Virus record (IMG/VR): IMGVR_UViG_3300025108_000063
Location: 1 to 54,441 of that record
From: a virus
Length of the DNA stretch: 54,441 bases
Direction: 5' to 3' (one strand)
The notes beneath the pieces were generated by a model. The model saw nothing but the letters and a program-made list of their open reading frames with translations, was not told the DNA's origin and did no database searches. This document shows positions 3,431-18,294 of the stretch, in pieces. Position 1 is the first letter of the stretch. Every line of letters starts with the position of its first letter. Both the position numbers and the translations under genes were made by a program.

Positions 3431-5002
3431 TTATTTTCGTTTCATTGTTACTATTGCGTTTGTACTTAGTATGGTTGTAGCTACACTTACTGCATTTTTT
3501 AGTGCATTCTTTGTAACTTTTGCAGGATCTATAACTCCCATCTTATACATGTCTCCAAATACTTTGTTTTTTACATCATATCCGTAATTATATGGAACTT
3601 TAGAGCAACTACACGTTTTATCTCTTATATTTCCTATATCTTCACCTGCATTTGCTAATATTTGACTAAATGGAGCTAATAATCCTAAATATAACACGTC
3701 ATTAGCGTGTCCATCCCTTAAATTCTCTGCACATCTTACAAGAGCCATGCCTCCTCCTGGTAAAATACCCTCTTCAATAGCCGATCTTACTGCACAAACA
3801 GCATCTTCTACCCTATCATACTTCTCTTTCTGCTCTACATCAGAGTTTCCTCCTACATATATTACACCTACAGCACCTGATAACAGAGCAATACGCTCCG
3901 TAATAAAGTCCCTTTCCTTCTTATCCTTGTTATTATCCTTCTGAACCTTCAATTCATCTATTCTAAGCTTAGCATCTTTACTACTTTTATCATCATTTAT
4001 AATAACAGTACTATCTTTACCTACTATAATCTTATCTGCATGACCCAAATCTTCCATTGTCAACATACCTATGTTGTCTCCCTGTGACTCACTAAAATAT
4101 TTCGCACCTATCGACAAAGCAATATCACTCATAAGCTCATTGGTCTTATATCCAAATGATGGTGGTATAATATTACAAAGCTTTAAATTATTCTGGATTA
4201 CATTGGCAGCTAATGTATTGGTTACATTCTGTGCGCAGTTACCGATAATCAGTAATTTCTTGTTCTGATTAATAATTGGTTTTAATATATTTTCAATCTG
4301 AAGAATATTAGTAATCTCCATATCAGTCATCAAAACACATACATCATCTAATATACATTCATCGTTTCTGTGATTATTGATAAATAACTTAGAACTATAT
4401 CCCCTGTCAATCTTAATTCCCTTTGTTATCTCATAATAAGTCTGGTCAGTTTTGCTATTCTCTACAGTAAGAACTCCATCTCTACCCAATTCCTTGTAAG
4501 CACTAGCAATCATTTTGCCTAAAACAGAATCATTGTTGGCAGATATAGTAGCTACATCACGCAAAGTTTTACCAGTTACCTTTTTAGAAGACTTACCTAA
4601 TGACTTTATTAATTCATCAGTAACATTATTTATATCTCGTATTAATTCAGTCGTATTAATATCAGGATTTTTTTCTATAACACGCATACCCTCCTTTACA
4701 ATAGCCTCCGTTAAAACTATCGCAGTAGTCGTTCCATCTCCTGCAGAAGTTGCAGTCCTCTCAGCAGCCTCCTTCATCATACGTATAGCTAAATTTTCTA
4801 CCGCATCTTCTAAATCTATAGACTTAGCAACCGTAACTCCATCTTTAGTTACCGTTATTCCATGTGTATGATTCTGTGATTCGATTAGTACAGTCTTACC
4901 GAGTGGCCCTAATGTACTTTTAACAGCTTTTGAAATTGTAGTTATGCCGTTTAATAATTTGTCTCTCCCTTCTTGGTCGAAGGATAATTCTTTTGGATTC
5001 AT
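3431..5002 (-). CDS. groL: Chaperonin GroEL (HSP60), phage-encoded
   Basis: The 523-residue length is close to bacterial GroEL (~545). ATP-site motifs are present: LGPLGKTVLI (31-40, for LGPKGRNV), the catalytic GDGTTTA (88-94), and ILPGGGMALVR (around 413) preceded by the D-AVxAxRxAIEEG segment that carries the hydrolytic Asp. The apical domain is more divergent, and the C-terminus ends TNAIVTMKRK, without the GGM tail of bacterial GroEL. It should form a ring that folds phage proteins with the neighbouring GroES. A good Bacteroidota promoter lies 25 bases upstream, and CGACATA-type repeats overlap and follow it, so expression is probably controlled. Divergence from host GroEL suggests a long history in phages. 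Confidence 0.96.
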   Translation of the reverse strand: MNPKELSFDQEGRDKLLNGITTISKAVKSTLGPLGKTVLIESQNHTHGITVTKDGVTVAKSIDLEDAVENLAIRMMKEAAERTATSAGDGTTTAIVLTEAIVKEGMRVIEKNPDINTTELIRDINNVTDELIKSLGKSSKKVTGKTLRDVATISANNDSVLGKMIASAYKELGRDGVLTVENSKTDQTYYEITKGIKIDRGYSSKLFINNHRNDECILDDVCVLMTDMEITNILQIENILKPIINQNKKLLIIGNCAQNVTNTLAANVIQNNLKLCNIIPPSFGYKTNELMSDIALSIGAKYFSESQGDNIGMLTMEDLGHADKIIVGKDSTVIINDDKSSKDAKLRIDELKVQKDNNKDKKERDFITERIALLSGAVGVIYVGGNSDVEQKEKYDRVEDAVCAVRSAIEEGILPGGGMALVRCAENLRDGHANDVLYLGLLAPFSQILANAGEDIGNIRDKTCSCSKVPYNYGYDVKNKVFGDMYKMGVIDPAKVTKNALKNAVSVATTILSTNAIVTMKRK

Positions 5003-5138: not shown

Positions 5139-5240
5139 CCGACATAATCGACATAAATAAAGTAAAGTATAATAAAATCAATAGTTTAGGTAAAAAAAAA
5201 TCGACATAAAACCGACATACCCTCGACATAAACCGACATA
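5139..5240. repeat. Iteron-like array of six (C/T)CGACATA repeats
   Basis: Six direct copies of YCGACATA start at 5139, 5148, 5201, 5212, 5223 and 5233. The last four are spaced 11, 11 and 10 bases, about one helical turn, so a protein would bind them all on one face. A seventh, inverted copy lies at 5057-5063. The same motif occurs again upstream of the primase (18295-18302 inverted; 18385-18391 direct). Together with the AT tract this looks like an origin or an operator cluster for a phage DNA-binding protein. Confidence 0.75.
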
Positions 5241-5244
5241 AAAA

Positions 5245-5269
5245 AGGGGCAAACATAAGTTTAACCCCT
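5245..5269 (-). terminator. Intrinsic terminator of the 5655-5307 operon
   Basis: AGGGG (5245-5249) pairs with CCCCT (5265-5269) around a 15-base loop. On the minus strand the hairpin is followed by TTTTTT. It lies 38 bases beyond the stop codon of the 68-residue gene, as expected for its terminator, and it shields the repeat array from transcription. Confidence 0.7.
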
Positions 5270-5306
5270 CTTTCTGAGAAACACAATCTAATTATTGGGA
5301 AGAAAG

Positions 5307-5513
5307 TTATTTATAAATACTAAAAAAATTCTTTTTAGCTTCAGCTAATTCAATTCCTTCTGCTATCATACTAATCTGCTTAGCACGATCTTTAGCTTTT
5401 TTAAAGCTAGCTAATTTTTTAATTCCTGTCGAGTAATAATCAAATCCTCCAGCAAGCTCATGCTTGTTTCGTTCTTGTAAATACTCTTTCATAATTGGTC
5501 TTTTACTCATCAT
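5307..5513 (-). CDS. Small hypothetical protein, 68 residues
   Basis: A basic, helical protein beginning MMSKRPIMKEYLQERNKHEL, with a Lys-rich middle (KKLASFKKAKDRAKQ). It has no membrane segment or known domain. It starts one base after the stop of the 46-residue gene and is followed by a clear terminator, so the two form a short operon. I do not recognise it; DNA or RNA binding is possible from its charge. Confidence 0.65.
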   Translation of the reverse strand: MMSKRPIMKEYLQERNKHELAGGFDYYSTGIKKLASFKKAKDRAKQISMIAEGIELAEAKKNFFSIYK

Positions 5514-5514
5514 A

Positions 5515-5655
5515 TTATTTCCATTTAAAATGTACGCTTATTATAACTAAATAAATTATAATCTCATTGAAATCATAATTTTCCTCAATGCCAAACCAAC
5601 TCCAACCAATCGCAAATCCAATAGGTATCCGATTATGTATTTCTATCTCTAGCAT
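5515..5655 (-). CDS. Small hydrophobic protein, 46 residues
   Basis: This short ORF is one base upstream of the 68-residue gene. It begins MLEIEIHNRIPIGFAIGWSW and contains two hydrophobic stretches: IPIGFAIGWSWFGI (~10-23) and EIIIYLVIISVHF (~31-43). That fits a tiny membrane-associated protein. I have seen similar IGxxIGWxxFxxx small proteins in marine phage genomes, without known function. A TATCTTTG -7 box lies 8 bases upstream. Confidence 0.6.
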   Translation of the reverse strand: MLEIEIHNRIPIGFAIGWSWFGIEENYDFNEIIIYLVIISVHFKWK

Positions 5656-5663
5656 TTAGAAAA

Positions 5664-5671
5664 CAAAGATA
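5664..5671 (-). promoter_or_regulatory. -7 element for the 5655-5307 operon
   Basis: CAAAGATA on the plus strand reads TATCTTTG on the minus strand, 8 bases upstream of the 46-residue gene. No clear TTTG is found at -33. The very short distance suggests a transcript with almost no 5' leader. Confidence 0.45.
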
Positions 5672-5755
5672 CAAAATTAATATTACTTATATAGAGGCTC
5701 TGGGTAATAATATAATATACGCAGCCAACCCCTGATCGAGAACCGTTTTATTTTT

Positions 5756-5862
5756 GATAGGGGGGGTGTGTTTTATTTTGATTTTTTTGCGTCAAATTTT
5801 TTTAGCTTTTTGCCTATCCCCTATCCCCTATCCTATCCCCTATCCCCTATCCTATCCCTTAT
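5756..5862. repeat. CTATCCCC tandem repeat with opposing G run
   Basis: Positions 5813-5862 are built from CCTAT and CCCCTAT blocks. A 19-base unit (CCTAT + CCCCTAT + CCCCTAT) occurs twice, followed by CCTAT and CCCTTAT. The minus strand therefore reads like telomeric GGGGATA repeats. GATAGGGG at 5756-5763, within a run of seven G, is the inverse complement, so the two arms can pair in single-stranded DNA or RNA. G-quadruplex formation is also possible. Confidence 0.75.
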
Positions 5863-6127
5863 ATTTTGTTTTTACGTAATACAAAACAAAGGTTTATTTA
5901 TGCCTTAATTTTATCAAATATCTAACTTTTTTAATACTAAAAAGATATATTTATTTATTGTTTTTTATTCAATTTTTACAATAGACAAAAAATATTTTTA
6001 AATTTTTTTTTGTGAATTCCAGGAGTCAATAATTTATCTAACTTATTGAAAATCAACATTTTAACTATTCAATTTTAAAAGCTCGTTTCAAAGATCTAAT
6101 TTTTTTTTACTTTTTTTTTATAATTTA

Positions 6128-6160
6128 TTTGTTTTATATAAATTTAATTCTATATATTTG
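6128..6160 (+). promoter_or_regulatory. Early promoter for the 159-residue gene
   Basis: TTTG (6128-6131), 21 bases, then TATATTTG (6153-6160), a good Bacteroidota promoter. The leader to the ATG at 6201 is ~35 bases and contains a small hairpin (TGGC 6164-6167 with GCCA 6174-6177). This is the first strong rightward promoter and may start the whole early region. Confidence 0.75.
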
Positions 6161-6200
6161 CAATGGCGATAATGCCAATTTAATTTAAATACATATAAAA

Positions 6201-6680
6201 ATGAAAAATTCAGTAAAAAGTAATTCAGTTAAAAAAGCAATTCAAACAAGCAAAAAAGTTGTAACACGCAAACCCTTAACAAAAGCGCAAAAAGAAGAAC
6301 GAAGAAAAAAGCGACTTGCAAACCCTCAAAGTAGCCATTTAGCATCTAATGTTTACAAGTTAGAGCAAATCGAATTTAGATTTAATGGCAAAGCTAATTT
6401 AATAGAAGCTAAAAGAAGACAAAACAAAGTTAGTTTAGTAAATTCAGGGTATGAAAATTTATCAGATTTGAAACTTGCAAATAAAGTAATTAACAAAATT
6501 GCAAAAGATAAAATTTTACTTGAAATGTCGCTTGAGGCCGTAAGAGTAAACAAAGACAAAAGCTATTCAGTTTTTTACTTTAATCAACTTGCACAAAAAA
6601 TCGTTAAACTTTTGGGCAAAGGTTTTGAAATTAATAAAGCGCTTGTTTTCATAGCTAATCAGAAAAAAGCTAATAAGTAA
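6201..6680 (+). CDS. Basic protein of unknown function, first early gene
   Basis: This 159-residue protein is strongly basic at its N-terminus (KAQKEERRKKRLANPQ around 43-58), with a helical C-terminal half (VINKIAKDKILLEMSLEAV, IVKLLGKGFEINKALVFIA). No domain is recognisable. Its codon use differs somewhat from its neighbours (more GC-ending codons such as gcg and ctt/ctc in runs). As the first gene behind the strong early promoter and just before the large structured RNA, it could be a nucleic-acid-binding early protein that acts on the host or on that RNA. This is speculation. Confidence 0.7.
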   Translation: MKNSVKSNSVKKAIQTSKKVVTRKPLTKAQKEERRKKRLANPQSSHLASNVYKLEQIEFRFNGKANLIEAKRRQNKVSLVNSGYENLSDLKLANKVINKIAKDKILLEMSLEAVRVNKDKSYSVFYFNQLAQKIVKLLGKGFEINKALVFIANQKKANK

Positions 6681-6695
6681 TATAAGCTAATTTAA

Positions 6696-6747
6696 GGGCG
6701 TTATTTGTGTGAAATAGCACAAAGTTAAACTTCGATGTTTAACGCCC
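6696..6747 (+). ncRNA. Compact three-way-junction RNA fold
   Basis: GGGCG (6696-6700) pairs with CGCCC (6743-6747) and encloses two more stems: TTTGTG/CACAAA (6704-6709 with 6718-6723) and GTTAAAC/GTTTAAC (6724-6730 with 6737-6743). All arms are perfect; only base 6743 is shared between two stems. It starts 15 bases after the stop of the 159-residue gene. It lacks a T tract, so it is not a standard terminator; it may be a processing or stabilising 3' structure. Confidence 0.5.
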
Positions 6748-6753
6748 ACAAAA

Positions 6754-6769
6754 AGCCTAAAAATAGGCT
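6754..6769 (-). terminator. Minus-strand intrinsic terminator-like hairpin
   Basis: AGCCTA (6754-6759), AAAA loop, TAGGCT (6764-6769). On the minus strand the hairpin is followed by TTTTT, as in a rho-independent terminator, but no minus-strand gene ends here. It may stop antisense transcription through the RNA region. Confidence 0.45.
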
Positions 6770-6800
6770 AAAATAAACGTTCTTACTTACATTAAAAAAA

Positions 6801-7442
6801 TACAACTTCAATATATAGGCAAGTCCATATATTAACACAGGCAATAGGCAAGACCATTGCAAACAAGTTGTAAATGTAGACATATTGAATAGATAGAAAC
6901 AGCTATTGTTAGTTAGTAGCTAAGGGAGTCAGCACCTAATGACGTTAAACACAAGATGAAGGCCTAAAGTCTATTCTGTTTGGAATAAAATACCACGTAA
7001 TGCAAAGCATTTTTAATGGGAGAGGTGAGTCAAGTTACCACCTATCTACTAATAAACATTAATACCATTGAGGCAGGATCCCAAGCAATTGCATTTAGAT
7101 AACTGACAACCCTACGGCATTTGGTATGAGGTGGGAGGCCATGTAAGAGTAAAGTATCAGGACTACTTGTAAAGCATGGAGTGGACTATATAATTTCGAT
7201 ATAGTAGAGAGCCGTAAAACTGCCTCTCGTAACTACTAAAGCACATAGACAGAAACACCTAGCAAGTGGAGAGTTTATGTTGTAAAGAGAAAAGAGAAAC
7301 GATATTACAGAGATACAATATTGGGAAGATAGGAATGTATCAAGGTAATAGAAGGTCTATGGGTATGGTTAGACTATCTGAGAATGACTGAAAAGATAAA
7401 AACCAAGAGAGAGGTGAGAGGGTTCGAATCCCTCCACCTTTA
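6801..7442 (+). ncRNA. Large structured RNA with tRNA-like 3' end
   Basis: About 640 bases without a gene, richer in GC than the surroundings and full of hairpins. An 8-bp stem TACAACTT/AAGTTGTA (6801-6808 with 6865-6872) encloses two hairpins with different stems but nearly the same loop, AGGCAAGTCC (6817-6826) and AGGCAAGACC (6846-6855). Further stems are AGCTA/TAGCT (6901, 6917), TATTC/GAATA (6972, 6983), AGGTG/CACCT (7023, 7039), ATACCA/TGGTAT (7062, 7122), ACTATAT/ATATAGT (7185, 7199) and GAGAG/CTCTC (7207, 7224). The 3' end is a T-arm, GAGGG-TTCGAAT-CCCTC (7418-7434), stacked on a 7-bp acceptor-like stem AGAGGTG/CACCTTT (7410-7416 with 7435-7441). Size, phage context and tRNA resemblance recall the GOLLD and ROOL classes of ornate large RNAs. 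Membership is unproven. Confidence 0.7.
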
Positions 7443-7464
7443 CTAATTATTAAATAAACAAAAG

Positions 7465-7566
7465 ATGTCAGTAACACAATTTACAGATTACACTATCACA
7501 GGAATGATAGTGTTAGTACTATTATTTTGTATAGTAACAATAGTAAGAGAATTTATTAAAAAGTAA
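7465..7566 (+). CDS. Tiny single-pass membrane protein, 33 residues
   Basis: Starts MSVTQFTDYTITGM, then a continuous hydrophobic helix (MIVLVLLLFCIVTIV, ~14-28), and ends REFIKK. This is a classic N-out, positive-inside single-pass peptide. It begins 23 bases after the structured RNA and ends 4 bases before the next gene. The function is unknown; a role in lysis or at the host membrane is possible. Confidence 0.6.
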   Translation: MSVTQFTDYTITGMIVLVLLFCIVTIVREFIKK

Positions 7567-7570
7567 ACAA

Positions 7571-7819
7571 ATGGGAAAACGTAAAAGAATACGCATAAAA
7601 GTGGGAGAGCTTGGTGCGTTAATCTCTGCAAGAGAAAAGAGAAAAGAGAAAATGTTTGGAGAAGTTATCACAGACATAATGCAAGAAATCCAATGCACCT
7701 GGACTGAAGCAAAAGAAATCTACAAGAGAAGAAGATTAGAGAACGCAATAAAGCGAGAGATGAATGCTTTGGGGAGTGGTGTTCACACTCATAAGAATAT
7801 TATTAATTTAAAAGCATAA
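7571..7819 (+). CDS. Hypothetical basic protein, 82 residues
   Basis: A charged helical protein: MGKRKRIRIKVGELGALISA, then REKRKEKMFGEVITDIMQEI and a W-containing amphipathic segment (CTWTEAKEIYKRRRLENAIK). It carries a 16-base repeat (7777-7792) that codes for SGVHTH and recurs at 12385-12400. No known domain; it may bind nucleic acid. It is tightly packed with its neighbours in the early operon. Confidence 0.6.
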   Translation: MGKRKRIRIKVGELGALISAREKRKEKMFGEVITDIMQEIQCTWTEAKEIYKRRRLENAIKREMNALGSGVHTHKNIINLKA

Positions 7820-7824
7820 ACAAA

Positions 7825-7917
7825 ATGAAAGAAGATTCAATTTTAGGTAACGCAGGAAATATTTTTTGCATAATCCTATTCGTAGTAGTAGTAGTAGTGT
7901 TAAATTTAAAATCATAA
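7825..7917 (+). CDS. Tiny single-pass membrane protein, 30 residues
   Basis: Begins MKEDSILGNAGN, then ILFVVVVVVLNL forms one transmembrane helix. It lies 5 bases after the previous stop, and the next ATG is 3 bases after its own. It is the second of three such peptides in the early region. Function unknown. Confidence 0.5.
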   Translation: MKEDSILGNAGNIFCIILFVVVVVVLNLKS

Positions 7918-7920
7918 TAT

Positions 7921-8097
7921 ATGGAACGCAAACACGTAGTAGTAAACGGATTACATTGTATAACAGAGAACGGACACGTTCACGTATACACAGAGCAAGA
8001 GTACAAAGACAGAGAGGACCAGTGTACTTGGTGGACTCGAACAAAGAGAGTATTAACCGACTTAGGTGCAGGAGCATCTTGGGCAATTAAAAACTAA
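7921..8097 (+). CDS. Small hypothetical protein, 58 residues
   Basis: Starts MERKHVVVNGLHCITENGHV and ends LGAGASWAIKN. The first half looks like a short beta hairpin pair, the second a helix (EYKDREDQCTWWTRTKRVL). It fits neatly between the 30-residue peptide and the 116-residue gene, with 2-3 base gaps. An overlapping ORF in another frame (7866-8090) fits the gene spacing less well and was set aside. Function unknown. Confidence 0.6.
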   Translation: MERKHVVVNGLHCITENGHVHVYTEQEYKDREDQCTWWTRTKRVLTDLGAGASWAIKN

Positions 8098-8099
8098 TT

Positions 8100-8450
8100 A
8101 TGGGAGTATTTAGCTTTATGACAACGGACACGAACAAGAGTGTGCCAAACAAATGGAACGAAGTCAGACCAACATTCACAGTCTATATGATAGACAACAA
8201 AGGTAATGTATGGGAAGAGAATGATTACGAAGGATATGGAGACTTCGGAGGCAAAGACATATATGAATTAATAGCAGAAATGAACGGATTCAAAGGCAGG
8301 GACAAAGGTATAGATATATTTTTCAATCCAATAGAGAATATGATATACCCAAACTTAGTGACAGATGATAGCAGAGAGTGGGAGAACAAGTTACTATTAG
8401 ACTGCCCATATCAAGGACATTTTTACGAGGGAATAATAATAATAAACTAA
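8100..8450 (+). CDS. Hypothetical early protein, 116 residues
   Basis: Begins MGVFSFMTTDTNKSVPNKWN and continues with a pattern (FTVYMIDNKGN ... YEGYGDFGGKDIYELIAEMN) that I recall from many marine phage genomes as a conserved protein of unknown function. The fold appears alpha/beta with a glycine-rich loop; there is no signal peptide or membrane helix. It starts 2 bases after the previous gene. The gene is probably real and widespread, but its role is not known to me. Confidence 0.7.
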   Translation: MGVFSFMTTDTNKSVPNKWNEVRPTFTVYMIDNKGNVWEENDYEGYGDFGGKDIYELIAEMNGFKGRDKGIDIFFNPIENMIYPNLVTDDSREWENKLLLDCPYQGHFYEGIIIIN

Positions 8451-8460
8451 ATAAATAAAT

Positions 8461-8805
8461 ATGAAAGCAATACACTTAGTAGACCACATTAGTTACAACA
8501 TGGAATCTAAAATCATTATAAACATTAATTCCATGTTTAGAGCAGAAGTAAGAGTATACTCTTATATCTATAAAACTATTGGCAAAGACAAATTTGAAGT
8601 TGACCAAACAGATAGCGAAATTGAATGGTATCTAAACGATAAAAAAGTTAATTACAAAGGATTCAAAGAACTTTATAATAAACTATACGGAGAAAAATCC
8701 TACAATGAATTAGAAAAAGACGTACGCAAATCTGCTGAAGATAAAGTGGAGACTAGAATAAAGACTGGTCAGTCATTCAAACAAATTATTATTAGTAATA
8801 TATAA
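8461..8805 (+). CDS. Hypothetical early protein, 114 residues
   Basis: Begins MKAIHLVDHISYNMESKIII. An acidic/basic mixed protein with a predicted beta-rich first half and a helical second half (ELYNKLYGEKSYNELEKDVR). The start is preceded by TAAATAAATAAATATG, the A/T-rich start signal repeated in this region. No known domain. Confidence 0.6.
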   Translation: MKAIHLVDHISYNMESKIIININSMFRAEVRVYSYIYKTIGKDKFEVDQTDSEIEWYLNDKKVNYKGFKELYNKLYGEKSYNELEKDVRKSAEDKVETRIKTGQSFKQIIISNI

Positions 8806-8815
8806 ATAAATAAAT

Positions 8816-9148
8816 ATGAGAACAAAAGATTTAATTATTAATGACACAGACATCATAGAATTGTTTATGAGAAAAGATGTAGAAGAAATTTTAATTACAA
8901 CAGACCTTAGAGCATTCAATTTAACAGAGGAAAATTTTGGTCTAAAAATAATTGAAAATTGTGATTGGGTAGAATTGGTGGACTTTGGTATGAAGAATAT
9001 AATATGCACAGAATTTTATTATGCAGAGAAAGTTCCTTACAACAAAGTAACAGCAGTTCTTGTCAGATACAGTGATGCTGACAAATATGGTAACGAAGTA
9101 GAGACATTCATTAACAAGAATTTTTCAGAAACAATCAAATCAAATTAA
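8816..9148 (+). CDS. Hypothetical early protein, 110 residues
   Basis: Begins MRTKDLIINDTDIIELFMRK. The predicted fold is alternating helix and strand (EILITTDLRAFNLTEE, LKIIENCDWVELVDFGMKNI), acidic overall. Its first five residues (MRTKD) match the start of the next gene, suggesting either a shared leader sequence or a small duplication around the start site. No known domain. Confidence 0.6.
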   Translation: MRTKDLIINDTDIIELFMRKDVEEILITTDLRAFNLTEENFGLKIIENCDWVELVDFGMKNIICTEFYYAEKVPYNKVTAVLVRYSDADKYGNEVETFINKNFSETIKSN

Positions 9149-9150
9149 TT

Positions 9151-9402
9151 ATGAGAACAAAAGACGAAACACATTCAGCAAAGTTTGACAAGCTATTAAA
9201 AGGAAAGAAGATAGACTCTTGTAGGTATATGACAAGAGAAGAAGCCGATCAGTTTGGTTGGTACAAAAGACCACTCATTATTATGTTTACTGATGAGAGT
9301 TACATAATATTACAGAGTGACGACGAAGGTAACGATGGAGGCGCAGCCTTGTACGAAGACATTCCTAGTAAGGAGAACTATAATATAATTTATACTATTT
9401 AA
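9151..9402 (+). CDS. Hypothetical early protein, 83 residues
   Basis: Begins MRTKDETHSAKFDKLLKGKK, then a compact strand-rich segment (SYIILQSDDEGNDGGAALY). Such small 'sensor-like' phage proteins often carry a DDEGNDGG-type loop, but I know of no function. It starts 2 bases after the previous stop and ends 3 bases before the amidoligase gene, so it belongs to the same transcript. Confidence 0.6.
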   Translation: MRTKDETHSAKFDKLLKGKKIDSCRYMTREEADQFGWYKRPLIIMFTDESYIILQSDDEGNDGGAALYEDIPSKENYNIIYTI

Positions 9403-9405
9403 AAA

Positions 9406-10635
9406 ATGGAAACACAATTAGAAGAAATGGTATGGTCTAAGGTAATGGATAGACACATACCAAGTGACGAAGCTTACGAAGTTAATGGCGACGTTGTAAC
9501 GAGAGAGTTCAGAGACGAGAACTATCGTCTTACAATAGATGATGATGAATATTACCCTAAAGATGCTGTTTATCTTTGTCAGGTTTCACAAGAGTTCTAT
9601 TCGACTGATGAAGACTTTTCAACCAGTTATTGTGGCGATTACGGACACGAAGAAAGTTTCTGTGATTCCGATTACCGTTGGATTGAAAGAGGAACAGCGG
9701 CAGGACATTGGTTATATTGTGACCACACAAGCTACTGTACCGACATAGACGAAAGTGTTCACGAAAATGATGCGACTTACTGCGATGTAGATGATGAATA
9801 TTATTATGACACCGACAACATGCCAGGCTCAGGATATGAACGTAATGAAGTTGGAAACTATCATTCGTGCAAAGACTATGTAGAAAACCTTAACAGTCCA
9901 TATCATGGACACAATACACAATTCAACATTGGGTTTGAGATAGAGAAAAATGTATTTCATACAGACAATGGAGATGCTACTGACGAAGGTGACCAAGTAG
10001 GTTGGTATGATTTGTTTGCAGGATTCGAGACCGATAGTTCTTGTGGTGTGGAGGCAGTGACTCACATACTGCCCTTAGGCTCTCCTAGAAGTAAGGCACG
10101 ACTCAAGGTTTTCGATATGATGGACGAGGCATCAATGGTAATTAACAGCCCTAAAGATATCACTTGTGGTGGTCACATTACTGTATCTGTAAATGGTATG
10201 ACAGATGGCTATGAATTGGTAGATAAAATGAGGGAGAAGTTAGCCATACTGTATGCACTATACCGATACCGATTGAAACGTAGCTATTGCTGTAGTAACA
10301 AGGGCATAAAGAAAGATAACAATGTCAAGTATGCACCTGTTCACGTCAAGGGTTGTAAGGTTGAGCTTAGGATACCATCGGCAGTAGCCAATGTAAAACA
10401 ATTAAAGTTACGTTATGATTTGATGTACAAGATTATGCACCACTCATTTGAACGCAGGGTACATTTCGAAGTATTTCTTTCAAACATACGTCACATTATC
10501 AAGAAGATGTACAATGGTAATGACCAAAAAGTAGATGCTATATTTGAATTGGCACACCACTTTAGAAGATACTTAATTGTAGAAGAAACATCATCAAATA
10601 TAAATGAATTTATTAATCACTCTAACGAAGAATAA
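9406..10635 (+). CDS. Amidoligase-family enzyme (glutamine-synthetase-fold COOH-NH2 ligase)
   Basis: 409 residues. The C-terminal part (from ~170) has the amidoligase (PF12224-type) signature: NIGFEIEKN (174-182; acidic metal/ATP ligands), FETDSSCGVEAVTHILPLGS (207-226; the D-x-S-C/G-vE block), a CGGHITVSVNG block (254-264) and VELRIP (319-324; last metal ligand E). These enzymes join a carboxylate to an amine using ATP. The N-terminal ~160 residues are very acidic and Tyr/Cys-rich, with repeated YC(D/G) units that may bind metal. The partner gene (10638-11642) begins 2 bases later and carries a glutaminase that could supply ammonia. The substrate (peptide, protein or metabolite) cannot be read from sequence. 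The family is well supported, the pathway inferred. Confidence 0.8.
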   Translation: METQLEEMVWSKVMDRHIPSDEAYEVNGDVVTREFRDENYRLTIDDDEYYPKDAVYLCQVSQEFYSTDEDFSTSYCGDYGHEESFCDSDYRWIERGTAAGHWLYCDHTSYCTDIDESVHENDATYCDVDDEYYYDTDNMPGSGYERNEVGNYHSCKDYVENLNSPYHGHNTQFNIGFEIEKNVFHTDNGDATDEGDQVGWYDLFAGFETDSSCGVEAVTHILPLGSPRSKARLKVFDMMDEASMVINSPKDITCGGHITVSVNGMTDGYELVDKMREKLAILYALYRYRLKRSYCCSNKGIKKDNNVKYAPVHVKGCKVELRIPSAVANVKQLKLRYDLMYKIMHHSFERRVHFEVFLSNIRHIIKKMYNGNDQKVDAIFELAHHFRRYLIVEETSSNINEFINHSNEE

Positions 10636-10637
10636 CA

Positions 10638-11642
10638 ATGTGTATAATTATTATTAAAGACAACAAGAAACAAATTAAGACTGAGACACTAATTGCATCA
10701 TCAGTCAAGAACCCAGATGGACTAGGCGTATTGTGGCTAGACAAGTGGAACGTGACCTATCACGATAGCGCAGACTATATGATACTCAAAACTAAACGAC
10801 CATACATTGCACACTTTAGGTATGCTACGATCGGTGAAGTCAGCAAGGCTAACTGTCACCCATTCGACATCAACAAGGACAACATACTGTTTCAAAATGG
10901 TACAGTATACGGACTAGGTAACAAGAAAAAGACAGACACTCAGCACCTAGCCGAGATACTTTCAGACGTACCACCCAATAGATGGAGAGAAGTGTTGGAG
11001 ATGAATGACTCAAGGTTTGTTACTGCCAACCTAAAGACTAAGAAGTATACGCTATACAACAAGTCTGATTGGACTAAAGTAAATGACATTTGGTACAGTA
11101 AAACAAATGTACTTGACAAGGTATTGATTGGTGTGTATGGCACACTCAAGAGGTATGGTAGTAATTACGACTACCACTTGGCAGACTCTATCTATGTAGG
11201 CAAGGCGAACACTTTAGAGAAATACCCTATGTTGATACAAGGCATACCTTATGTACTTGACAAGCCAGGAGTAGGACACCACATAGATATTGAACTATTC
11301 TTAGTAGACAGGAAGACGTGCCTACCAAGTATTGACAGGCTAGAGGGACACCCCACTTGGTATGAGAGAAGAAAGACAGATGTTATATTAGAAGATATGT
11401 GTACTGTACTTACTCCTTATATATACTTCAATGACACTGTAAAAGATGAGGGAGAGCATCACAAGACATTTACTCAGGAGGTATATGGATTTTATGACAA
11501 TCCTTTGTTAGGTGGAATTGAACATTACGAGTGCAAATGTGCCAACCCTGAGCCTGTATTAGATTACAACGACCATTACTGTGATATATGTTACGGTGAT
11601 ATTATAGAAGACGAACATACTATTAATCAATTTAATTTTTAA
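10638..11642 (+). CDS. Class II glutamine amidotransferase fused to gamma-glutamylcyclotransferase-like domain
   Basis: 334 residues in three parts. Residues 1-~150: Ntn-type class II glutaminase. Cys2 directly follows the start Met (MCIIII); DGLGVLW (27-33), IAHFRYATIG (57-66), NCHPF (72-76) and FQNGTVYG (85-92) match the family motifs. Residues ~164-270: a GGCT/AIG2-like domain with VYGTLKRYG (166-174) and IDRLEGHPTWYERR (232-245), including the expected catalytic Glu. C-terminal tail: CKC (299-301) and CDIC (315-318), a likely zinc knuckle. The glutaminase would release ammonia for the amidoligase encoded 2 bases upstream. The cyclotransferase part would form or remove a gamma-glutamyl-amine product. 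Aravind and colleagues predicted amidoligase gene neighbourhoods with such partners; the fused form here is notable. Confidence 0.82.
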   Translation: MCIIIIKDNKKQIKTETLIASSVKNPDGLGVLWLDKWNVTYHDSADYMILKTKRPYIAHFRYATIGEVSKANCHPFDINKDNILFQNGTVYGLGNKKKTDTQHLAEILSDVPPNRWREVLEMNDSRFVTANLKTKKYTLYNKSDWTKVNDIWYSKTNVLDKVLIGVYGTLKRYGSNYDYHLADSIYVGKANTLEKYPMLIQGIPYVLDKPGVGHHIDIELFLVDRKTCLPSIDRLEGHPTWYERRKTDVILEDMCTVLTPYIYFNDTVKDEGEHHKTFTQEVYGFYDNPLLGGIEHYECKCANPEPVLDYNDHYCDICYGDIIEDEHTINQFNF

Positions 11643-11645
11643 ACT

Positions 11646-11765
11646 ATGGCAGACACAAGTACAACAATTTTAAAGATTTCTTTCAACCTATATGGCAAGG
11701 AAGCAACTGAACTTACTCAACAAGAGAGAGACAAAGTAATGGAAATATATTACGACTTTTATTAA
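11646..11765 (+). CDS. Small hypothetical protein, 39 residues
   Basis: Starts MADTSTTILKISFNLYGKEA and ends EIYYDFY. It lies 3 bases behind the glutaminase fusion gene and 18 bases before the next gene. It is acidic, with one short strand and one helix. The tight spacing supports translation; function unknown. Confidence 0.5.
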   Translation: MADTSTTILKISFNLYGKEATELTQQERDKVMEIYYDFY

Positions 11766-11783
11766 CTTAATAAATTACAAACT

Positions 11784-12017
11784 ATGAGTATATCTAAAAA
11801 AGGATTTTACGAATTAAAGACAGAGACCTATACAGTACTAGTAGAGTATATGTATTACTACACAAGTGGGACTTATGAAGACCCCCCTGTAGAAGATATG
11901 GAGATACATTTAGTTGAGCTAAATGGAATGGACATTACAGACTTCTTTTGGGATTTTGTAGACGACAAAGTATATGAACAAGTATGGGAGTATGCACAAG
12001 AAAATAAGTTTAACTAA
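11784..12017 (+). CDS. Hypothetical acidic protein, 77 residues
   Basis: Begins MSISKKGFYELKTETYTVLV, with alternating strands in the first half and an acidic second half ending VYEQVWEYAQENKFN. No cysteine pairs, membrane helices or known domain. Its high Asp/Glu/Tyr content resembles the anti-host or DNA-mimic proteins that phages often make early, but nothing proves this. Confidence 0.6.
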   Translation: MSISKKGFYELKTETYTVLVEYMYYYTSGTYEDPPVEDMEIHLVELNGMDITDFFWDFVDDKVYEQVWEYAQENKFN

Positions 12018-12035
12018 TATAAATAAATAGAAATT

Positions 12036-12380
12036 ATGGGAAGATATTATGATGGAGACATAAGCGGCAAGTTTATGTTTGCAGTACAATCAAGCGACGC
12101 AGCAGATAGATTCGGATCTGCTGGTTACAACAATTATTTAGACTACTACTTTTGTGAAGACCACCTGCCTACAATAAAGGAGGAGTTGGCTTTACTAAAG
12201 GAAGACTGGGAGGTAGTCAATGAGTTCTTTAAAGACAGAGATACTTGGACTACACAAGAACAAAAAGACGCAGGTATCACAAGTGAACAGATGAGTAACT
12301 ATGCTGACTATCGTTTAGGTAAGCAAATTCTAGACCATGTGAAAGAGAATGGAGAATGTCAATTTTCAGCAGAGCTTTAG
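12036..12380 (+). CDS. Hypothetical acidic protein, 114 residues
   Basis: Begins MGRYYDGDISGKFMFAVQSS and continues ADRFGSAGYNNYLDYYFCED, then a helical segment (PTIKEELALLKEDWEVVNEF). I recall this MGRYYxGDIxGKFwFAxQsSxxAdrFG opening from phage and host early proteins of unknown function. It is acidic and soluble. It is the last gene before a 207-base gap with RNA-like hairpins. Confidence 0.65.
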   Translation: MGRYYDGDISGKFMFAVQSSDAADRFGSAGYNNYLDYYFCEDHLPTIKEELALLKEDWEVVNEFFKDRDTWTTQEQKDAGITSEQMSNYADYRLGKQILDHVKENGECQFSAEL

Positions 12381-12587
12381 GTGATGGTGTTCACACTCAT
12401 CATTTTATAAAATTAAAGTGAGTCATTATGAAATCCTTAGTTGTCGCTAATGTAGGCCGTTGTAATGCTTAAAAAGTTAATGTGTTACTCACACCTTTTA
12501 ATATTAGGTTTATTCATTCACAAATTACAACAAGACTGACAGGACGGAAAGACGCCCCTCTTTTGAGGTAACTTTAAATAAATAAAA
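12381..12587 (+). other. Intergenic region with nested hairpins
   Basis: No clear gene. A hairpin at 12383-12401 (GATGGTG, loop TTCA, CAC-T-CATC) contains the 16-base repeat shared with 7777-7792. A longer-range stem GTGAGT (about 12419) with ACTCAC (about 12488) encloses a 14-codon ORF (MKSLVVANVGRCNA). CCTC/GAGG around TTTT lies near 12560. This could be an attenuator or an RNA processing site between early gene blocks. Confidence 0.4.
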
Positions 12588-12785
12588 ATGGTAAAACTAA
12601 ATTTAAGTGAAGAAAGTACAAGACACTTAGTGGATATGTACGAAGCCAGGATTGAAGCCTTGCAAAAAAACATTAAGAAACTAAAGCTAATAATTGATGA
12701 TAGCATACATCAAGAAAAGCTAGATAACTGTAGTGCAAACGCATCAGAAGAATTCATAGAATCATTAATCAATAAACACAATTAA
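12588..12785 (+). CDS. Small coiled-coil protein, 65 residues
   Basis: Begins MVKLNLSEESTRHLVDMYEA and is almost entirely helical. Heptad spacing of hydrophobics across ~12-40 (LVDMYEARIEALQKNIKKLK) suggests a short coiled coil, hence an oligomer or a partner-binding peptide. A/T-rich start (AAATAAATAAAAATG). No known function. Confidence 0.55.
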   Translation: MVKLNLSEESTRHLVDMYEARIEALQKNIKKLKLIIDDSIHQEKLDNCSANASEEFIESLINKHN

Positions 12786-12788
12786 ATT

Positions 12789-12911
12789 ATGGAAGATTTT
12801 TTAAACAAAGTATTTTTAACAGTATTAACATTATTAATAGTTCCCTTTATGTTAGTGTATTTAATAGGAGACTGGATTGTTAAAGGAGTAAAGAACACGC
12901 TATTTTTATAG
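12789..12911 (+). CDS. Small membrane protein, 40 residues
   Basis: Begins MEDFLNKVFLTVLTLL, then a long hydrophobic helix (VFLTVLTLLIVPFMLVYLIG), and ends IVKGVKNTLFL. It is a single-pass or amphipathic membrane peptide, 3 bases after the coiled-coil gene. Together with the 33- and 30-residue peptides it is one of the few candidates in the window for a holin-like or host-membrane function. Confidence 0.5.
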   Translation: MEDFLNKVFLTVLTLLIVPFMLVYLIGDWIVKGVKNTLFL

Positions 12912-12930
12912 AAATAAAAGAATAAAAAAA

Positions 12931-13083
12931 ATGAAAGAACAAACATTTACAGTACACCTGTATTATGCAGGAGAGATGTCAGATGAAACAAAACACACTA
13001 CATCTTTAGACCAAGCGAGAAGATGGGTTGCAGACGCAGCTCATGGAACAATTATTAACCAAAATCAAATAATAATACAATAA
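12931..13083 (+). CDS. Small hypothetical protein, 50 residues
   Basis: Starts MKEQTFTVHLYYAGEMSDET and ends INQNQIIIQ, a beta-alpha-beta size peptide with a helix at QARRWVADAAH. It is tightly packed before the next gene (2-base gap). Function unknown. Confidence 0.5.
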   Translation: MKEQTFTVHLYYAGEMSDETKHTTSLDQARRWVADAAHGTIINQNQIIIQ

Positions 13084-13085
13084 TT

Positions 13086-13355
13086 ATGGGAGCAACAAAC
13101 ATTCATTACACAGCGAGTAAAAAACAATACAAATCGGCAAGAGATGCGTATCAAGAACTAAGAGAAGATGCACAATACGAGTACGGACACGATCCATACA
13201 GTGGTACTATTGCCACCTGTTCATTAGAAGGTAAGATATCCGAGCCTAAAACTGAAGAGGAGTATGACGAAGCATTAGACAGAGTAGACAAGAGAGAATG
13301 TGTATACTACGAGACAGAAAAAGAATATGTATTCATTGGGTGGGCCGCATGTTAA
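13086..13355 (+). CDS. Hypothetical protein, 89 residues
   Basis: Begins MGATNIHYTASKKQYKSARD, then an acidic middle (GHDPYSGTIATCSLEGKISE) and a C-terminal strand (VYYETEKEYVFIGWAAC). I recall a related conserved phage pattern (AYxxLxExAxxExGHDxYSGTIxT) without known function. It is a single soluble domain and starts 2 bases after the previous stop. Confidence 0.65.
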   Translation: MGATNIHYTASKKQYKSARDAYQELREDAQYEYGHDPYSGTIATCSLEGKISEPKTEEEYDEALDRVDKRECVYYETEKEYVFIGWAAC

Positions 13356-13375
13356 ATAAAATAATAAACGAAAAA

Positions 13376-13675
13376 ATGGAAAACACAATCAATTTTAATT
13401 TAGACGAAATGGGCAGTTCAGATATTGCCTCAATGCACAAAGTAATTGACGCATACGAAAACATTCCTTCAAGTGACAAATACATAATGTATGGAGGGAC
13501 AGGTTTCAATACTAGTTCAGGCTATGTTTATATAGCTTTAGAAAACGGAGTTTCAATTTGTTCTTGCTTTAACCAGTCAGTTGATTATCTTGTGACTGAT
13601 TACGATACAGGTGACGAACAATTCTTTGACACATACGAAGAAGCAATCGAAGAGCTTGAAAATATTAATAAATAA
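13376..13675 (+). CDS. Hypothetical acidic protein, 99 residues
   Basis: I place the start at the ATG at 13376 (MENTINFNLDEMGSSDIASM), after an A-rich run, rather than at an upstream ATG in the same frame that would overlap the previous gene by 58 bases. The protein is acidic, ends in a helix (DTYEEAIEELENINK) and has a central beta region (YIMYGGTGFNTSSGYVYIAL). No known domain. It lies 5 bases before the methyltransferase gene. Confidence 0.6.
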   Translation: MENTINFNLDEMGSSDIASMHKVIDAYENIPSSDKYIMYGGTGFNTSSGYVYIALENGVSICSCFNQSVDYLVTDYDTGDEQFFDTYEEAIEELENINK

Positions 13676-13680
13676 ACAAT

Positions 13681-14724
13681 ATGAATGTACTATCATTATT
13701 CGATGGCATGTCCTGTGGACAGATAGCCCTCAAGAATCTTGGTGTAAAAGTAGACAACTACTATGCATCAGAGATTGACAAGTATGCTATAAAAATAGCA
13801 AAGAAAAACTTCCCTGACATGATTCATGTTGGGGATGTAACCAAGCTAAGTTATTCTGATTACAGAAAGTGTTTGGTAAGAGAGAAAAGTTCTCAATATA
13901 TACAGGATATACCCAAGTCTAGACGAATAGATCTTATAATGGGTGGTAGTCCATGTCAAGGATTTAGTAAGGCAGGAAAAAACTTAAACTTTGATGACCC
14001 TAGAAGCAAATTGTTTTTTGAGTTTGTGAGGTTAGTTAAAGAATGTAAGCCAAAGTATTTCTTATTGGAGAATGTAAAGATGACAAAAGAACACAGAGAT
14101 ACTATATCAGAGTTCTTAGGAGTTCAACCAATATACATAGACTCAGCACTTGTATCTGCACAAACCAGGAAGAGGTACTATTGGACTAATATACCTTATA
14201 TATTTGCCCCTATAGACCTAGGGGTAAAGCTAAGCGATATTATTCAAACAGAAGGAGAGCTTGAAGGTTCATTAGTTGATGAGAGGATGGTAACAAATAA
14301 AGGTAAAGCCTATTGTCTTACAGCAAGATATGATGGAGCTGTATGGTGGAACAGTATAGAAAGAAGTCAACGAAGTATGATTAGAATAGAAGATAAGGTT
14401 TGCTTTCCTGAAGCCACAAAGAAAGGTTATGCCGCTGCAGGTGTTGGAGAGGGATTAGATCTGTCATTTCCTAACAGTAATACTAGAAGAGGTAGACTAA
14501 TAAAAGAGAAAGCTCATTGCGTTACTACAATCTCACCAAATCAAGGCATCATAAATGAAAAATATAATTGGAGAAAATTAACTCCAATTGAATGCGAGAG
14601 ACTGCAAACAGTTCCTGATAACTATACCGAAGGTGTATCTAATGCACAAAGATATAAGATGTTAGGAAATGGATGGACAGTTAAAGTAATAGAACACATA
14701 TTAAAACAAATAAAAGTTGTATAA
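13681..14724 (+). CDS. DNA (cytosine-5-)-methyltransferase
   Basis: 347 residues with the full C5-MTase motif set in order: motif I SLFDGMSCGQIAL (5-17; AdoMet binding), motif IV GGSPCQGFSKAG (89-100; catalytic Cys in PCQ), motif VI LLENVKM (~126-132), motif VIII QTRKRYYW (~160-167), and motifs IX-X in the C-terminus (LTPIECERLQTVPDNYT and MLGNGWTV). It would methylate the C5 carbon of cytosine in a specific sequence, probably to protect phage DNA from host restriction. The target-recognition region is ~180-290. No cognate restriction gene is present, so it is an orphan phage methylase. Its stop lies inside a 39-base direct repeat that recurs after the next gene. Confidence 0.95.
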   Translation: MNVLSLFDGMSCGQIALKNLGVKVDNYYASEIDKYAIKIAKKNFPDMIHVGDVTKLSYSDYRKCLVREKSSQYIQDIPKSRRIDLIMGGSPCQGFSKAGKNLNFDDPRSKLFFEFVRLVKECKPKYFLLENVKMTKEHRDTISEFLGVQPIYIDSALVSAQTRKRYYWTNIPYIFAPIDLGVKLSDIIQTEGELEGSLVDERMVTNKGKAYCLTARYDGAVWWNSIERSQRSMIRIEDKVCFPEATKKGYAAAGVGEGLDLSFPNSNTRRGRLIKEKAHCVTTISPNQGIINEKYNWRKLTPIECERLQTVPDNYTEGVSNAQRYKMLGNGWTVKVIEHILKQIKVV

Positions 14725-14741
14725 TAAATAAATAAATATTA
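14703..14741 (+). repeat. 39-base direct repeat, upstream copy
   Basis: Identical to 15663-15701, exactly 960 bases further on. It covers the last codons of the methyltransferase gene and the -33 part (GTTG 14716-14719) of the next gene's promoter. The pair brackets the PAPS-reductase-like gene. Confidence 0.9.
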
Positions 14742-14795
14742 AATTTGTAGTATATGAAAAAACATAAATATTAAATTTGTAGTATATGAAAAAAC
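14732..14795 (+). repeat. Tandem 32-base duplication containing promoter and start codon
   Basis: Two exact adjacent copies (14732-14763 and 14764-14795), each with a TAAATTTG -7 element (14740-14747; 14772-14779) and an ATG (14754; 14786). With GTTG at 14716-14719 and 20-base spacing, the first copy makes a good promoter. The first ATG opens only MKKHKY and stops at 14772-14774; the second is the real gene start. The duplicated start could act as a short upstream ORF that damps translation. Confidence 0.8.
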
Positions 14796-15673
14796 ATAAA
14801 GACATTATTGCTTGGTGGTCAGGAGGAGTCACTTCTGCTGTTACATGTAAAATATGTGTTGATAGTTATGGTAAAAAAAGAGTAAGAGTTATCTTCATAG
14901 ACACACATAATGAACATGACGATACATACCGATTTAAAAGGGATTGCGAGAAATGGTATGGAGTTGACATAGAAACCATTAGTAATATAGGAGATAAGTA
15001 CGAGAAAATTCAAGACGTTTGGATAAAGTATAAGTCTTTAAATGTTGCGCATGGAGCTGTATGTTCTTCTGAACTAAAAAGAAATACTCGAGAAAAATGG
15101 GAGAAAAATAACAATTACACACACCAGGCATTTGGCTTTGATATTGATGAGGTTAGGAGGGTTAAAGGAATGAAGTTAAATCATTCTAGAGCTAAACCTA
15201 TATTCCCCTTATTAATGCATCACTATTCAAAAAAAGATTGCATTAACATAATTCAAGATGCAGGAATAGAAGTACCTGTTATGTATAAGATGGGGTTTTT
15301 AAACAACAACTGTTTTAAAACAGGATGCGTTCAAGGTGGGATAGGTTATTGGCAAAAAATGAAAAAAGATTTTCCTGAAAAGTTTGATGCTATGAGTAAA
15401 GTAGAACATGATTTAACAAATCTTAAAGGAAAACCTGTTACAATGCTAAAAGATCAATCAAAAAGGGGAGGATTAGTATTTCTGAAACCACATCCAAAAT
15501 ATCCTAATATAAAAGATATAACAAAGATGAGAGGAAGAGAGCCTAAACCATTGTTTGAATGCAACGGTTTTTGTGGAGTAAACGATTTAGAAAAAAGAAG
15601 TCCTGAAGAACAGGATATAAACTACCAAATAGATATGTTCGATTCTATTTCTGAATTAAATAAAAACAAATAA
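14786..15673 (+). CDS. PAPS reductase / PP-loop (adenine nucleotide alpha-hydrolase) family protein
   Basis: 295 residues. WWSGGVTSAVTCKI (10-23) is a PP-loop (SGGxxS) as in PAPS/APS reductases and ATP-pyrophosphatases. VIFIDTHNEHDDTYRFKRD (32-50) matches the following conserved block of phage PAPS-reductase-like proteins. Cysteines at NNNCFKTGC and CNGFCG in the C-terminal half could bind a metal or Fe-S cluster. Such phage proteins may reduce sulfate, thiolate a nucleic acid or otherwise use ATP; the DndC protein of phosphorothioation is a relative, but no dndA/B/D/E is present. The gene has its own promoter and lies between 39-base direct repeats, so it looks like an acquired cassette (moron). 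Confidence 0.8.
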   Translation: MKKHKDIIAWWSGGVTSAVTCKICVDSYGKKRVRVIFIDTHNEHDDTYRFKRDCEKWYGVDIETISNIGDKYEKIQDVWIKYKSLNVAHGAVCSSELKRNTREKWEKNNNYTHQAFGFDIDEVRRVKGMKLNHSRAKPIFPLLMHHYSKKDCINIIQDAGIEVPVMYKMGFLNNNCFKTGCVQGGIGYWQKMKKDFPEKFDAMSKVEHDLTNLKGKPVTMLKDQSKRGGLVFLKPHPKYPNIKDITKMRGREPKPLFECNGFCGVNDLEKRSPEEQDINYQIDMFDSISELNKNK

Positions 15674-15701
15674 AAGTTGTATAATAAATAAATAAATATT
15701 A
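15663..15701 (+). repeat. 39-base direct repeat, downstream copy
   Basis: Identical to 14703-14741. It overlaps the end of the PAPS-reductase-like gene and supplies the -33 part of the next promoter. Recombination between the copies would delete exactly one gene and leave one working promoter. Confidence 0.9.
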
Positions 15702-15707
15702 TATTTG
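15676..15707 (+). promoter_or_regulatory. Promoter for the replication-recombination operon
   Basis: GTTG (15676-15679), 20 bases, TATATTTG (15700-15707), a good Bacteroidota promoter. The next gene starts 25 bases later (15733). It likely serves the tightly packed genes from 15733 to the terminator at 18261. Confidence 0.7.
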
Positions 15708-15732
15708 CAAAACACAATCTAATTTAATTATC

Positions 15733-15948
15733 ATGGGAAAATCAAGAGAAATGTTCAACCGAGAGCGTGAACAACAATCCGAAACTTTAAGAGAATTTTT
15801 AGACGACACATACCAGTCGTCTCAATACCACGCTAATAAACAGCGACTAATACTTAGCGAAATATTTGTAACATTTTCACAAATATTCGGTGAAGAAGAT
15901 AAATTTAACTTAAATAAAACTAAATCCAATGAAAAGAGGAATATTTAA
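15733..15948 (+). CDS. Hypothetical small protein, 71 residues
   Basis: Begins MGKSREMFNREREQQSETLR, charged and helical throughout, ending in Lys-rich NKTKSNEKRNI. It overlaps the next gene by 20 bases. As the first gene of the recombination/replication transcript it may be a regulator or accessory factor, but no domain is recognisable. Confidence 0.6.
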   Translation: MGKSREMFNREREQQSETLREFLDDTYQSSQYHANKQRLILSEIFVTFSQIFGEEDKFNLNKTKSNEKRNI

Positions 15949-16219
15949 TCGATACGTTGATTATATCTGTTCAGAAACAGGTGTATCAAGAGACTTATTA
16001 TTTAAAAAGGATAGGTCTTCAAAGTATTCTACAGCAAGATTTTTATTGTATGCTGTATGTTACCAAAGACCTATGACTATAGTTCAGATAGTAGATCTTA
16101 TGTCTGAGAATGGCTACAGTATTGCTAGACAAGGTGTAGAATATGGAATACAAAAGATAGAAGATTCAAATGATTATGACGTTAAGTCTTTTATAAAAGA
16201 TGCAATTAACAATGCATAG
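15929..16219 (+). CDS. DnaA domain-IV-like helix-turn-helix protein
   Basis: 96 residues in one helical domain. The pattern VDYICSETGVSRDLLFKKDR ... STARFLLYAVCYQRPMTIVQ ... SENGYSIARQGVEYGIQKI follows the DnaA C-terminal DNA-binding domain (helix, sR.....aR.ia.yl, HTH with a final recognition helix). The DHxT signature is weak (SIARQGVEYGI). No AAA+ part is present. It could bind the CGACATA repeats or another origin site. Compare the second such protein at 23022-23591. The family is likely; the role is inference. Confidence 0.6.
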   Translation: MKRGIFNRYVDYICSETGVSRDLLFKKDRSSKYSTARFLLYAVCYQRPMTIVQIVDLMSENGYSIARQGVEYGIQKIEDSNDYDVKSFIKDAINNA

Positions 16220-16595
16220 TCTCAAAGATTTATGGGATGAAGCATCTACCAGTAGGAAATGCACTAATTTAAGTTATAAGACAGAGTTATCATATATTTA
16301 TAGGGGCATTAAGATTTGTAATGTAAATAATAACATTAAAATATATAATGCAGGAATACAAAAATATGCCTATAAAGAATTAACTGAAGATGAATATCAG
16401 TTTTTATATGATAACGGTTTTATAAAAGGAGTTCACCTTACAAAAATGGGAAACTACAAGGACAAGATTTCAATCTTAAATAAAAAGATAAAGAATGAAA
16501 TCAATACAAGGAATAATAAAAAGCATTATGATTCTTTGAAAGTTAAAAGAGAAAATCTAATTAATAAATACACACAAATATCTAAATTAAATTAA
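16200..16595 (+). CDS. Hypothetical basic protein, 131 residues
   Basis: The longest frame starts MQLTMHSLKDLWDEASTSRK; the second Met (16212), giving an 8-base overlap with the previous gene, is an equally good start. The protein is basic and has a helical C-terminus (KMGNYKDKISILNKKIKNEI ... LKVKRENLINKYTQ), probably a coiled coil. It sits just before the annealing protein. No known domain; DNA binding or recombination support is possible. Confidence 0.6.
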   Translation: MQLTMHSLKDLWDEASTSRKCTNLSYKTELSYIYRGIKICNVNNNIKIYNAGIQKYAYKELTEDEYQFLYDNGFIKGVHLTKMGNYKDKISILNKKIKNEINTRNNKKHYDSLKVKRENLINKYTQISKLN

Positions 16596-16596
16596 A

Positions 16597-17920: not shown

Positions 17921-17976
17921 AGTAAAGGAGTCAGATGCGCTGCTCCAACTCAGCGCTCAACATTAATACTATTATT

Positions 17977-18240: not shown

Positions 18241-18260
18241 AAGTTTGTGTTGCTAAGATT

Positions 18261-18285: not shown

Positions 18286-18294
18286 TATCTTATC

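Follow-up and report, generated by a model that had tools for sequence, protein, structure and literature searches.

A structured phage RNA outside GOLLD and ROOL that ends in a tRNA-like minihelix and whose body forms one exchanged block with most of the adjoining protein gene

The N/nut system of phage lambda and the put system of HK022 comprise a small basic early protein and/or a nascent RNA element, and they are swapped between phages as matched sets. The c4 RNA controls an antirepressor. GOLLD and ROOL, found in phages and prophages, are large structured RNAs that are tied to tRNA genes and sit close to tRNA islands (PMC12286853). Such large phage RNAs are among the bigger unsolved RNAs. 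In vertebrates, the long RNAs MALAT1 and MEN-beta (mascRNA) derive a 3' end from a tRNA-like structure that RNase P and RNase Z cleave; bacterial RNase P tolerates heavily truncated tRNA substrates, and it also processes polycistronic mRNAs and two noncoding RNAs, OLE RNA and the c4 antisense RNA of phages P1 and P7 (PMC4919922). Here we describe a phage RNA whose type adds an unrelated set to the large phage RNAs and offers a clue that GOLLD and ROOL lack, namely that a protein gene moves along with the RNA.

We analyzed a virus record of 54.4 kb (IMG/VR IMGVR_UViG_3300025108_000063, 54,441 nucleotides), hereafter the window. Its terminase is 68% identical to that of a Manatee Spring phage and approximately 44% identical to those of Flavobacterium elemo phages, and on the basis of these identities we regard it as a phage of Bacteroidota-type hosts. 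A leftward gene block containing groEL is followed by a rightward early operon, which opens with a gene we call K (6201–6680, + strand) encoding a basic protein of 159 amino acids (37 Lys/Arg, 12 Asp/Glu). K received no confident Pfam or PHROG family assignment, and no close relative of it was found in cultured phages. Upstream lies a promoter-like site (6128–6160, + strand; TTTG-N21-TATATTTG), identified by its match to the Bacteroidota-type consensus. It is the sole match of its type within 5200–7600, a scan that found no such site inside the RNA stretch described below. The phage groEL and a GroES-like gene occupy 3431–5002 and 51925–52488.

Directly after K comes a large gene-free stretch. 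The first-pass annotation, made from the sequence of the window, had described about 640 bases without genes at 6801–7442, and indeed 6681–7464 contains no convincing ORF. No + strand ORF of at least 50 amino acids occurs between 6680 and 7571, and a single − strand ORF, of 52 amino acids (6725–6883), reaches into the stretch. The first downstream candidate is a hydrophobic ORF of 33 amino acids (7465–7566, + strand), located directly 3' of the tRNA-like end and alike at 30 of 33 residues in the relative L021; its peptide, MSVTQFTDYTITGMIVLVLLFCIVTIVREFIKK, resembles a small membrane protein. An 82-amino-acid gene follows (7571–7819, + strand), whose kinship tracks the tRNA-like end rather than the body of the RNA. 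An amidoligase-like protein is encoded further along the window, at 9406–10635, with a gamma-glutamyl cyclotransferase gene adjoining.

The stretch had also been called packed with perfect stems, which is only mildly true: the folding energy of the window RNA lies below that of its shuffles by z −1.1 (20 shuffles) or −2.4 (60 shuffles). That it is structured stands, while its start is probably earlier than 6801, near 6696, giving an RNA of about 700–750 nt on the + strand. The predicted fold begins with a domain at 6696–6769, likely the 5' part of the structured RNA, that combines an element closed by GGGCG/CGCCC with an AGCCTA/TAGGCT hairpin. A three-way junction closed by TACAACTT/AAGTTGTA (6787–6879) is followed by a conserved 90-nt core of three helices, P1–P3 (6887–6976), and by a variable body with weakly predicted structure (6977–7340), for which we found no relative past approximately 7017. 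The 3' module at 7367–7404, GGTT..TATCT-GAGAATGAYTGAA-AGATA..AACC, is common to the window and the relatives L021, L022, and L038, with the stem reading TGTCT/AGACA in L038. A GTCTA/TAGAC hairpin that we had considered a conserved part of this module was dropped, as it is absent from L021 and L038.

The three-way junction holds the twin hairpins that had first drawn attention to the region. Both are present with the stems originally reported, at 6810–6833 (AATATAT-A-GG-CAAGT-CC-ATATATT) and 6841–6860 (GCAAT-A-GG-CAAGA-CC-ATTGC); what had been taken for 10-letter loops is better read as a bulged A, GG/CC pairs, and a 5-nt loop. The hairpins have a 14-mer in common with one mismatch, a repeat that is not rare by itself (5 of 60 shuffles); bulged GG-N5-CC hairpins, counted by their stem and bulge geometry, number 2 against 0.035 expected. 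The proposal that the loops are under selection found no support across phages, since the AGGCAAGWCC pair occurs in the window only. A similar bulged hairpin (GG-UUAAU-CC) occurs once in each of the relatives L024 and L030. As a family signature the twin-loop motif was rejected: a scan of viral contigs returned only chance or coding matches, and elsewhere in them the motif pair did not turn up as an RNA. Other members carry a short motif twice, at 2949–2963 and 3008–3022 in L036 and at 5180–5202 and 5434–5456 in L030; the duplicated motifs in L036 and L030 are TTWTAAGCGTTCTTA and AAAGTGGTTAATCCCT, so that each RNA type has a different one.

Assignment to the GOLLD/ROOL type had been suggested, with a new class as the other option, and the latter fits best. 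The window has no match in Rfam 15 at gathering score. At E ≤ 5, the interval 6650–7600 yielded a 17-nt T-arm recognized as a piece of tmRNA (13.3 bits) and two irrelevant weak matches, so that covariance searches with the GOLLD (RF02032), ROOL, OLE, and tmRNA models gave no match beyond this T-arm; the OLE model matched nowhere in that interval up to E = 5. RNAs of the relatives matched no family at gathering score, GOLLD and ROOL included, and we found no close RNA relative in cultured phages or plasmids. Among known identities, an intron was rejected for lack of any relevant Rfam match even at E ≤ 5. The same fate met tmRNA, of which the T-arm alone matches, with an acceptor that closes locally over a 1-nt bulge, and tRNA, since no cloverleaf with an anticodon arm is formed; ARAGORN found neither tRNA nor tmRNA. 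The region is a real, previously undescribed structured phage RNA, apparently noncoding and with a genuine tRNA-like end, and it lies outside GOLLD and ROOL. It also differs from c4 and OLE RNA in sequence and location. It might nonetheless resemble GOLLD and ROOL in function, as an ornate RNA that self-assembles into a cage, of the kind that GOLLD forms as a 14-mer, or into another homo-oligomer, and to which K is merely adjacent. Comparable size, phage origin, association with tRNA, and the repeated hairpin motifs of several members speak for this reading; we consider it quite improbable given that neither Rfam model matches and that the relatives' sequences differ almost wholly, in contrast to GOLLD and ROOL with their conserved cores. 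The window RNA is further set apart by its 3' minihelix and by the exchange of its body with a protein gene.

Using the amidoligase-like protein as an anchor, we identified five to six distinct IMG/VR phage relatives, all metagenomic. In L021, L022 (nearly identical to L021), L024, L030, L031, L038, and probably L036, an RNA is likewise situated between K and the small gene that follows, and six related RNAs likewise fall below their shuffles in folding energy (z −1.9 to −4.5). L033 and L034 possess K and the downstream gene with no room for an RNA between them, so the RNA is not indispensable to K in every phage. MW202828 has a tRNA-like element at the site without a large RNA. A large homologous RNA family in approximately 75 amidoligase-bearing phages was rejected, as the conserved gap there is the groEL-divergent intergenic region plus a minus-strand 85-amino-acid ORF. 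In L024, the Rfam DUF805b RNA (47 bits) lies at 5890–5922, just 5' of the amidoligase-like gene.

Compensatory changes among homologs, proposed in the first-pass annotation as one check, were found at two levels. In the 90-nt core, common to the window, L024, and L030, 56 of 57 cells across helices P1–P3 are paired and 10 of 19 pair columns have changed on both sides; P1 was positioned by hand, the automatic alignment being out of register. For P2 and P3 together 97% of cells are paired, a figure that drops to 28%–60% when the partner is slid by 1–3 columns, and the unpaired core letters are invariant across all three. A search of 0.98 Mb of sequence with a core model recovered only the window, L024, and L030, and further core and 3'-module matches from pattern scans of viral and genome contigs were discarded because they fall in coding sequence. 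Aligned over 552 columns, the RNAs of L024 and L030 are 82% identical; none of the 142 predicted pairs is broken, and 13 are maintained by compensatory change (column-shuffle mean 3.6, maximum 7). The alifold z score is −10.9 on this strand, compared with −4.3 on the opposite strand and −3.0 for an adjacent coding gene. A possible second core, "core2," in L031 and L038 is suggestive only: its flanks AAGTAGTAG and GAAGCCAAA are common to both, but statistical backing is weak, with z −2.7 and 4 compensatory pairs where shuffles give 2.35.

These comparisons bear on whether the RNA is simply a long structured 3' untranslated region that shields the K messenger from exonucleases, with an unspecific body free to drift. 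The position of the RNA directly after K, its lack of a promoter-like site of its own, and its fast change between relatives are as expected from such a region, but the 13 compensatory and 0 broken pairs in L024/L030, together with the invariant unpaired letters of the core, point to specific selection, and we regard this explanation as unlikely.

Comparison of close relatives revealed a feature absent from the earlier annotation: the RNA body is exchanged with most of the K gene. Up to position 6261, which is codon 20 of K, the window matches L021 at 93% identity; the two then have nothing in common up to 7321, and from 7322 identity of 89%–97% resumes through the minihelix and the next genes. 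The exchanged block (6262–7321, + strand) therefore has no detectable similarity to L021, with both flanks about 89%–97% identical. An independent second pair, L030 and L031, is 86% identical to codon 17 of K, retains only a 76-nt hairpin region thereafter, and returns to 87% identity 13 nt before the tRNA-like element. Across the two pairs, whose flanks are 86%–94% identical, the boundaries thus fall near codons 17–20 of K and 13–88 nt before the tRNA-like end, leaving the first ~20 codons of K conserved and the remainder inside the block. L024 and L030 have K (84%) and the RNA in common while their downstream genes differ (27%), and L031 and L038 likewise resemble each other in K (50%) and differ in the downstream gene (25%). 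Together with the block boundaries, these cases indicate that the RNA body travels with K and the tRNA-like end with the downstream genes. Near-identical phages with different cassettes thus provide a natural comparison.

As in N/nut, a small basic protein adjoins an RNA and is exchanged with it, which plain linkage could also explain. Because linkage alone suffices, and because other early stretches are also mosaic between the window and L021 (8097–8798 and 8847–9129), a matched K–RNA pair is suggested only. Processive antitermination of the N/nut or put kind, in which K and the nascent RNA would modify RNA polymerase so that early terminators are passed, would account for a basic first early gene co-exchanged with the RNA, and the L036 RNA is bounded at both ends by terminator-like hairpins with T runs. 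Against it, the RNA is several-fold longer than nut, put, or EAR elements, and the sequence immediately downstream in the window showed no clear intrinsic terminator; this mechanism too seems unlikely to us. An antitermination role would be drawn from analogy with lambda and HK022, from which the window RNA differs in being ~700 nt long and present at one site.

The 3' end had been described as a T-arm with a 7-bp acceptor and no D or anticodon arm, and this proved exact. The minihelix (7410–7442, + strand) comprises a 7-bp acceptor, a 1-nt bulge, a 5-bp T stem, a TTCGAAT loop, and an unpaired A; at 7410–7441 it reads AGAGGTG-A-GAGGG-TTCGAAT-CCCTC-CACCTTT, with 12 of 12 pairs formed and a single nucleotide in place of the D, anticodon, and variable arms. 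All 12 pairs are kept between the window and L021, one acceptor pair having switched between U-A and A-U. Between L030 and L031, one acceptor pair and one T-stem pair have changed compensatorily, and both elements contain an identical 31-nt insert able to form a small arm. L024 has a different hairpin and no tRNA-like end, and the element of L038 is degenerate. The window minihelix resembles a tRNA-Ser minus its middle arms. In the L021 element, the 5' strand of the acceptor and a 20-nt stretch of the 3' half equal those of a tRNA-Ser from a Cyclobacteriaceae assembly, making it likely that the element descends from a serine tRNA that lost its middle. Arm-less mitochondrial tRNAs are similarly cut down to a few arms; those decode, unlike the window, L021, and L030-type elements, which have no anticodon.

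To place these elements in context, we scanned 1.1 Mb for a 7-bp acceptor joined to a 5-bp T stem and T-loop. This returned 24 matches, whereas shuffled sequence gave 0.3; of the 24, 23 lie on the amidoligase strand. Approximately nine are ordinary tRNAs; the others are reduced or odd, were missed by the tRNA finder, and lie nearly always on the gene strand, mostly at gene boundaries. Similar reduced elements thus recur in the phage group, for example between genes without an exchanged block. Intergenic examples occur in L042 (6470–6522 and 6813–6854), L041, L047, L080, L106 (13381–13429), L086, and L092, and several lie immediately 3' of a terminator-like hairpin with a T run. These distributions bear on the idea that the tRNA-like end is left over from an attachment site (attP), with the block being an integrated element. 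The 20-nt match of the L021 3' half to bacterial tRNA-Ser and the proximity of the tRNA-like end to the exchange boundaries lend it some appeal, but the paired acceptor 5' strand is also retained and covaries, no integrase was found among ~31 window proteins scanned, and similar elements lie between genes elsewhere without a block. We consider it highly improbable.

With stems kept and decoding parts lost, selection would be for end-processing enzymes rather than translation. The minihelix has the geometry of an RNase P/Z substrate, with a 12-bp coaxial acceptor and T stem, a T loop, and a linker of at least 1 nt, the minimum that the human enzyme needs in a tRNA-like substrate (PMC4919922). 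The tolerance of RNase P and the precedent of MALAT1 make processing feasible (PMC4919922), with the difference that MALAT1 and MEN-beta are vertebrate RNAs with a larger tRNA-like part, and that processing of the phage RNA is a prediction.

From the RNA-level structure, the tRNA-like end, and the co-exchange of K and RNA, we infer a noncoding RNA that is co-transcribed with K, has a 3' end processed at the minihelix, and has K as its partner; we put the probability of this reading at roughly 0.45. Besides the linkage and mosaicism noted above, the phages that have K without the RNA (L033, L034), the missing tRNA-like end of L024 and the degenerate one of L038, and the unremarkable folding energy of the window RNA by itself speak against it. 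An early transcript from the promoter-like site near 6128 would carry both K and the RNA, which would fold on it. Host RNase P (5' of the acceptor) and/or RNase Z (3') may then cut at the serine-tRNA-like minihelix, parting the K–RNA portion from the downstream messenger and leaving the processed RNA with a defined 3' end that resists exonucleases. The RNA body and the variable part of K would most likely assemble into a ribonucleoprotein, because both are replaced together; since structure prediction for K stayed at pLDDT 49–50, it is charge alone that points to binding. The likely leading ideas for its use are early transcription control, in the manner of N/nut, or dealing with host defense. 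More broadly, and with considerable doubt, the locus may represent a polymorphic module of Bacteroidota phages in which a conserved N-terminal tag, a variable basic domain, and a matched 500–700-nt RNA are exchanged as a single cassette that is under diversifying selection, a tRNA-Ser-derived minihelix both marks and makes the 3' end, and reduced tRNAs serve as punctuation in early operons. Such reduced elements hint that tRNA processing enzymes may be used by phages to cut their own messages.

A separate repeat was observed in the early region of MW202828 (L107), where the perfect palindrome GTGTCGTTAACGACAC occurs 14 times within 7746–19155, mostly before genes, and is absent from the remaining 36 kb. 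It is possibly a phage operator, and a similar sequence, GTGTCTTYAAAGACAC, recurs in L082, L086, and L092.
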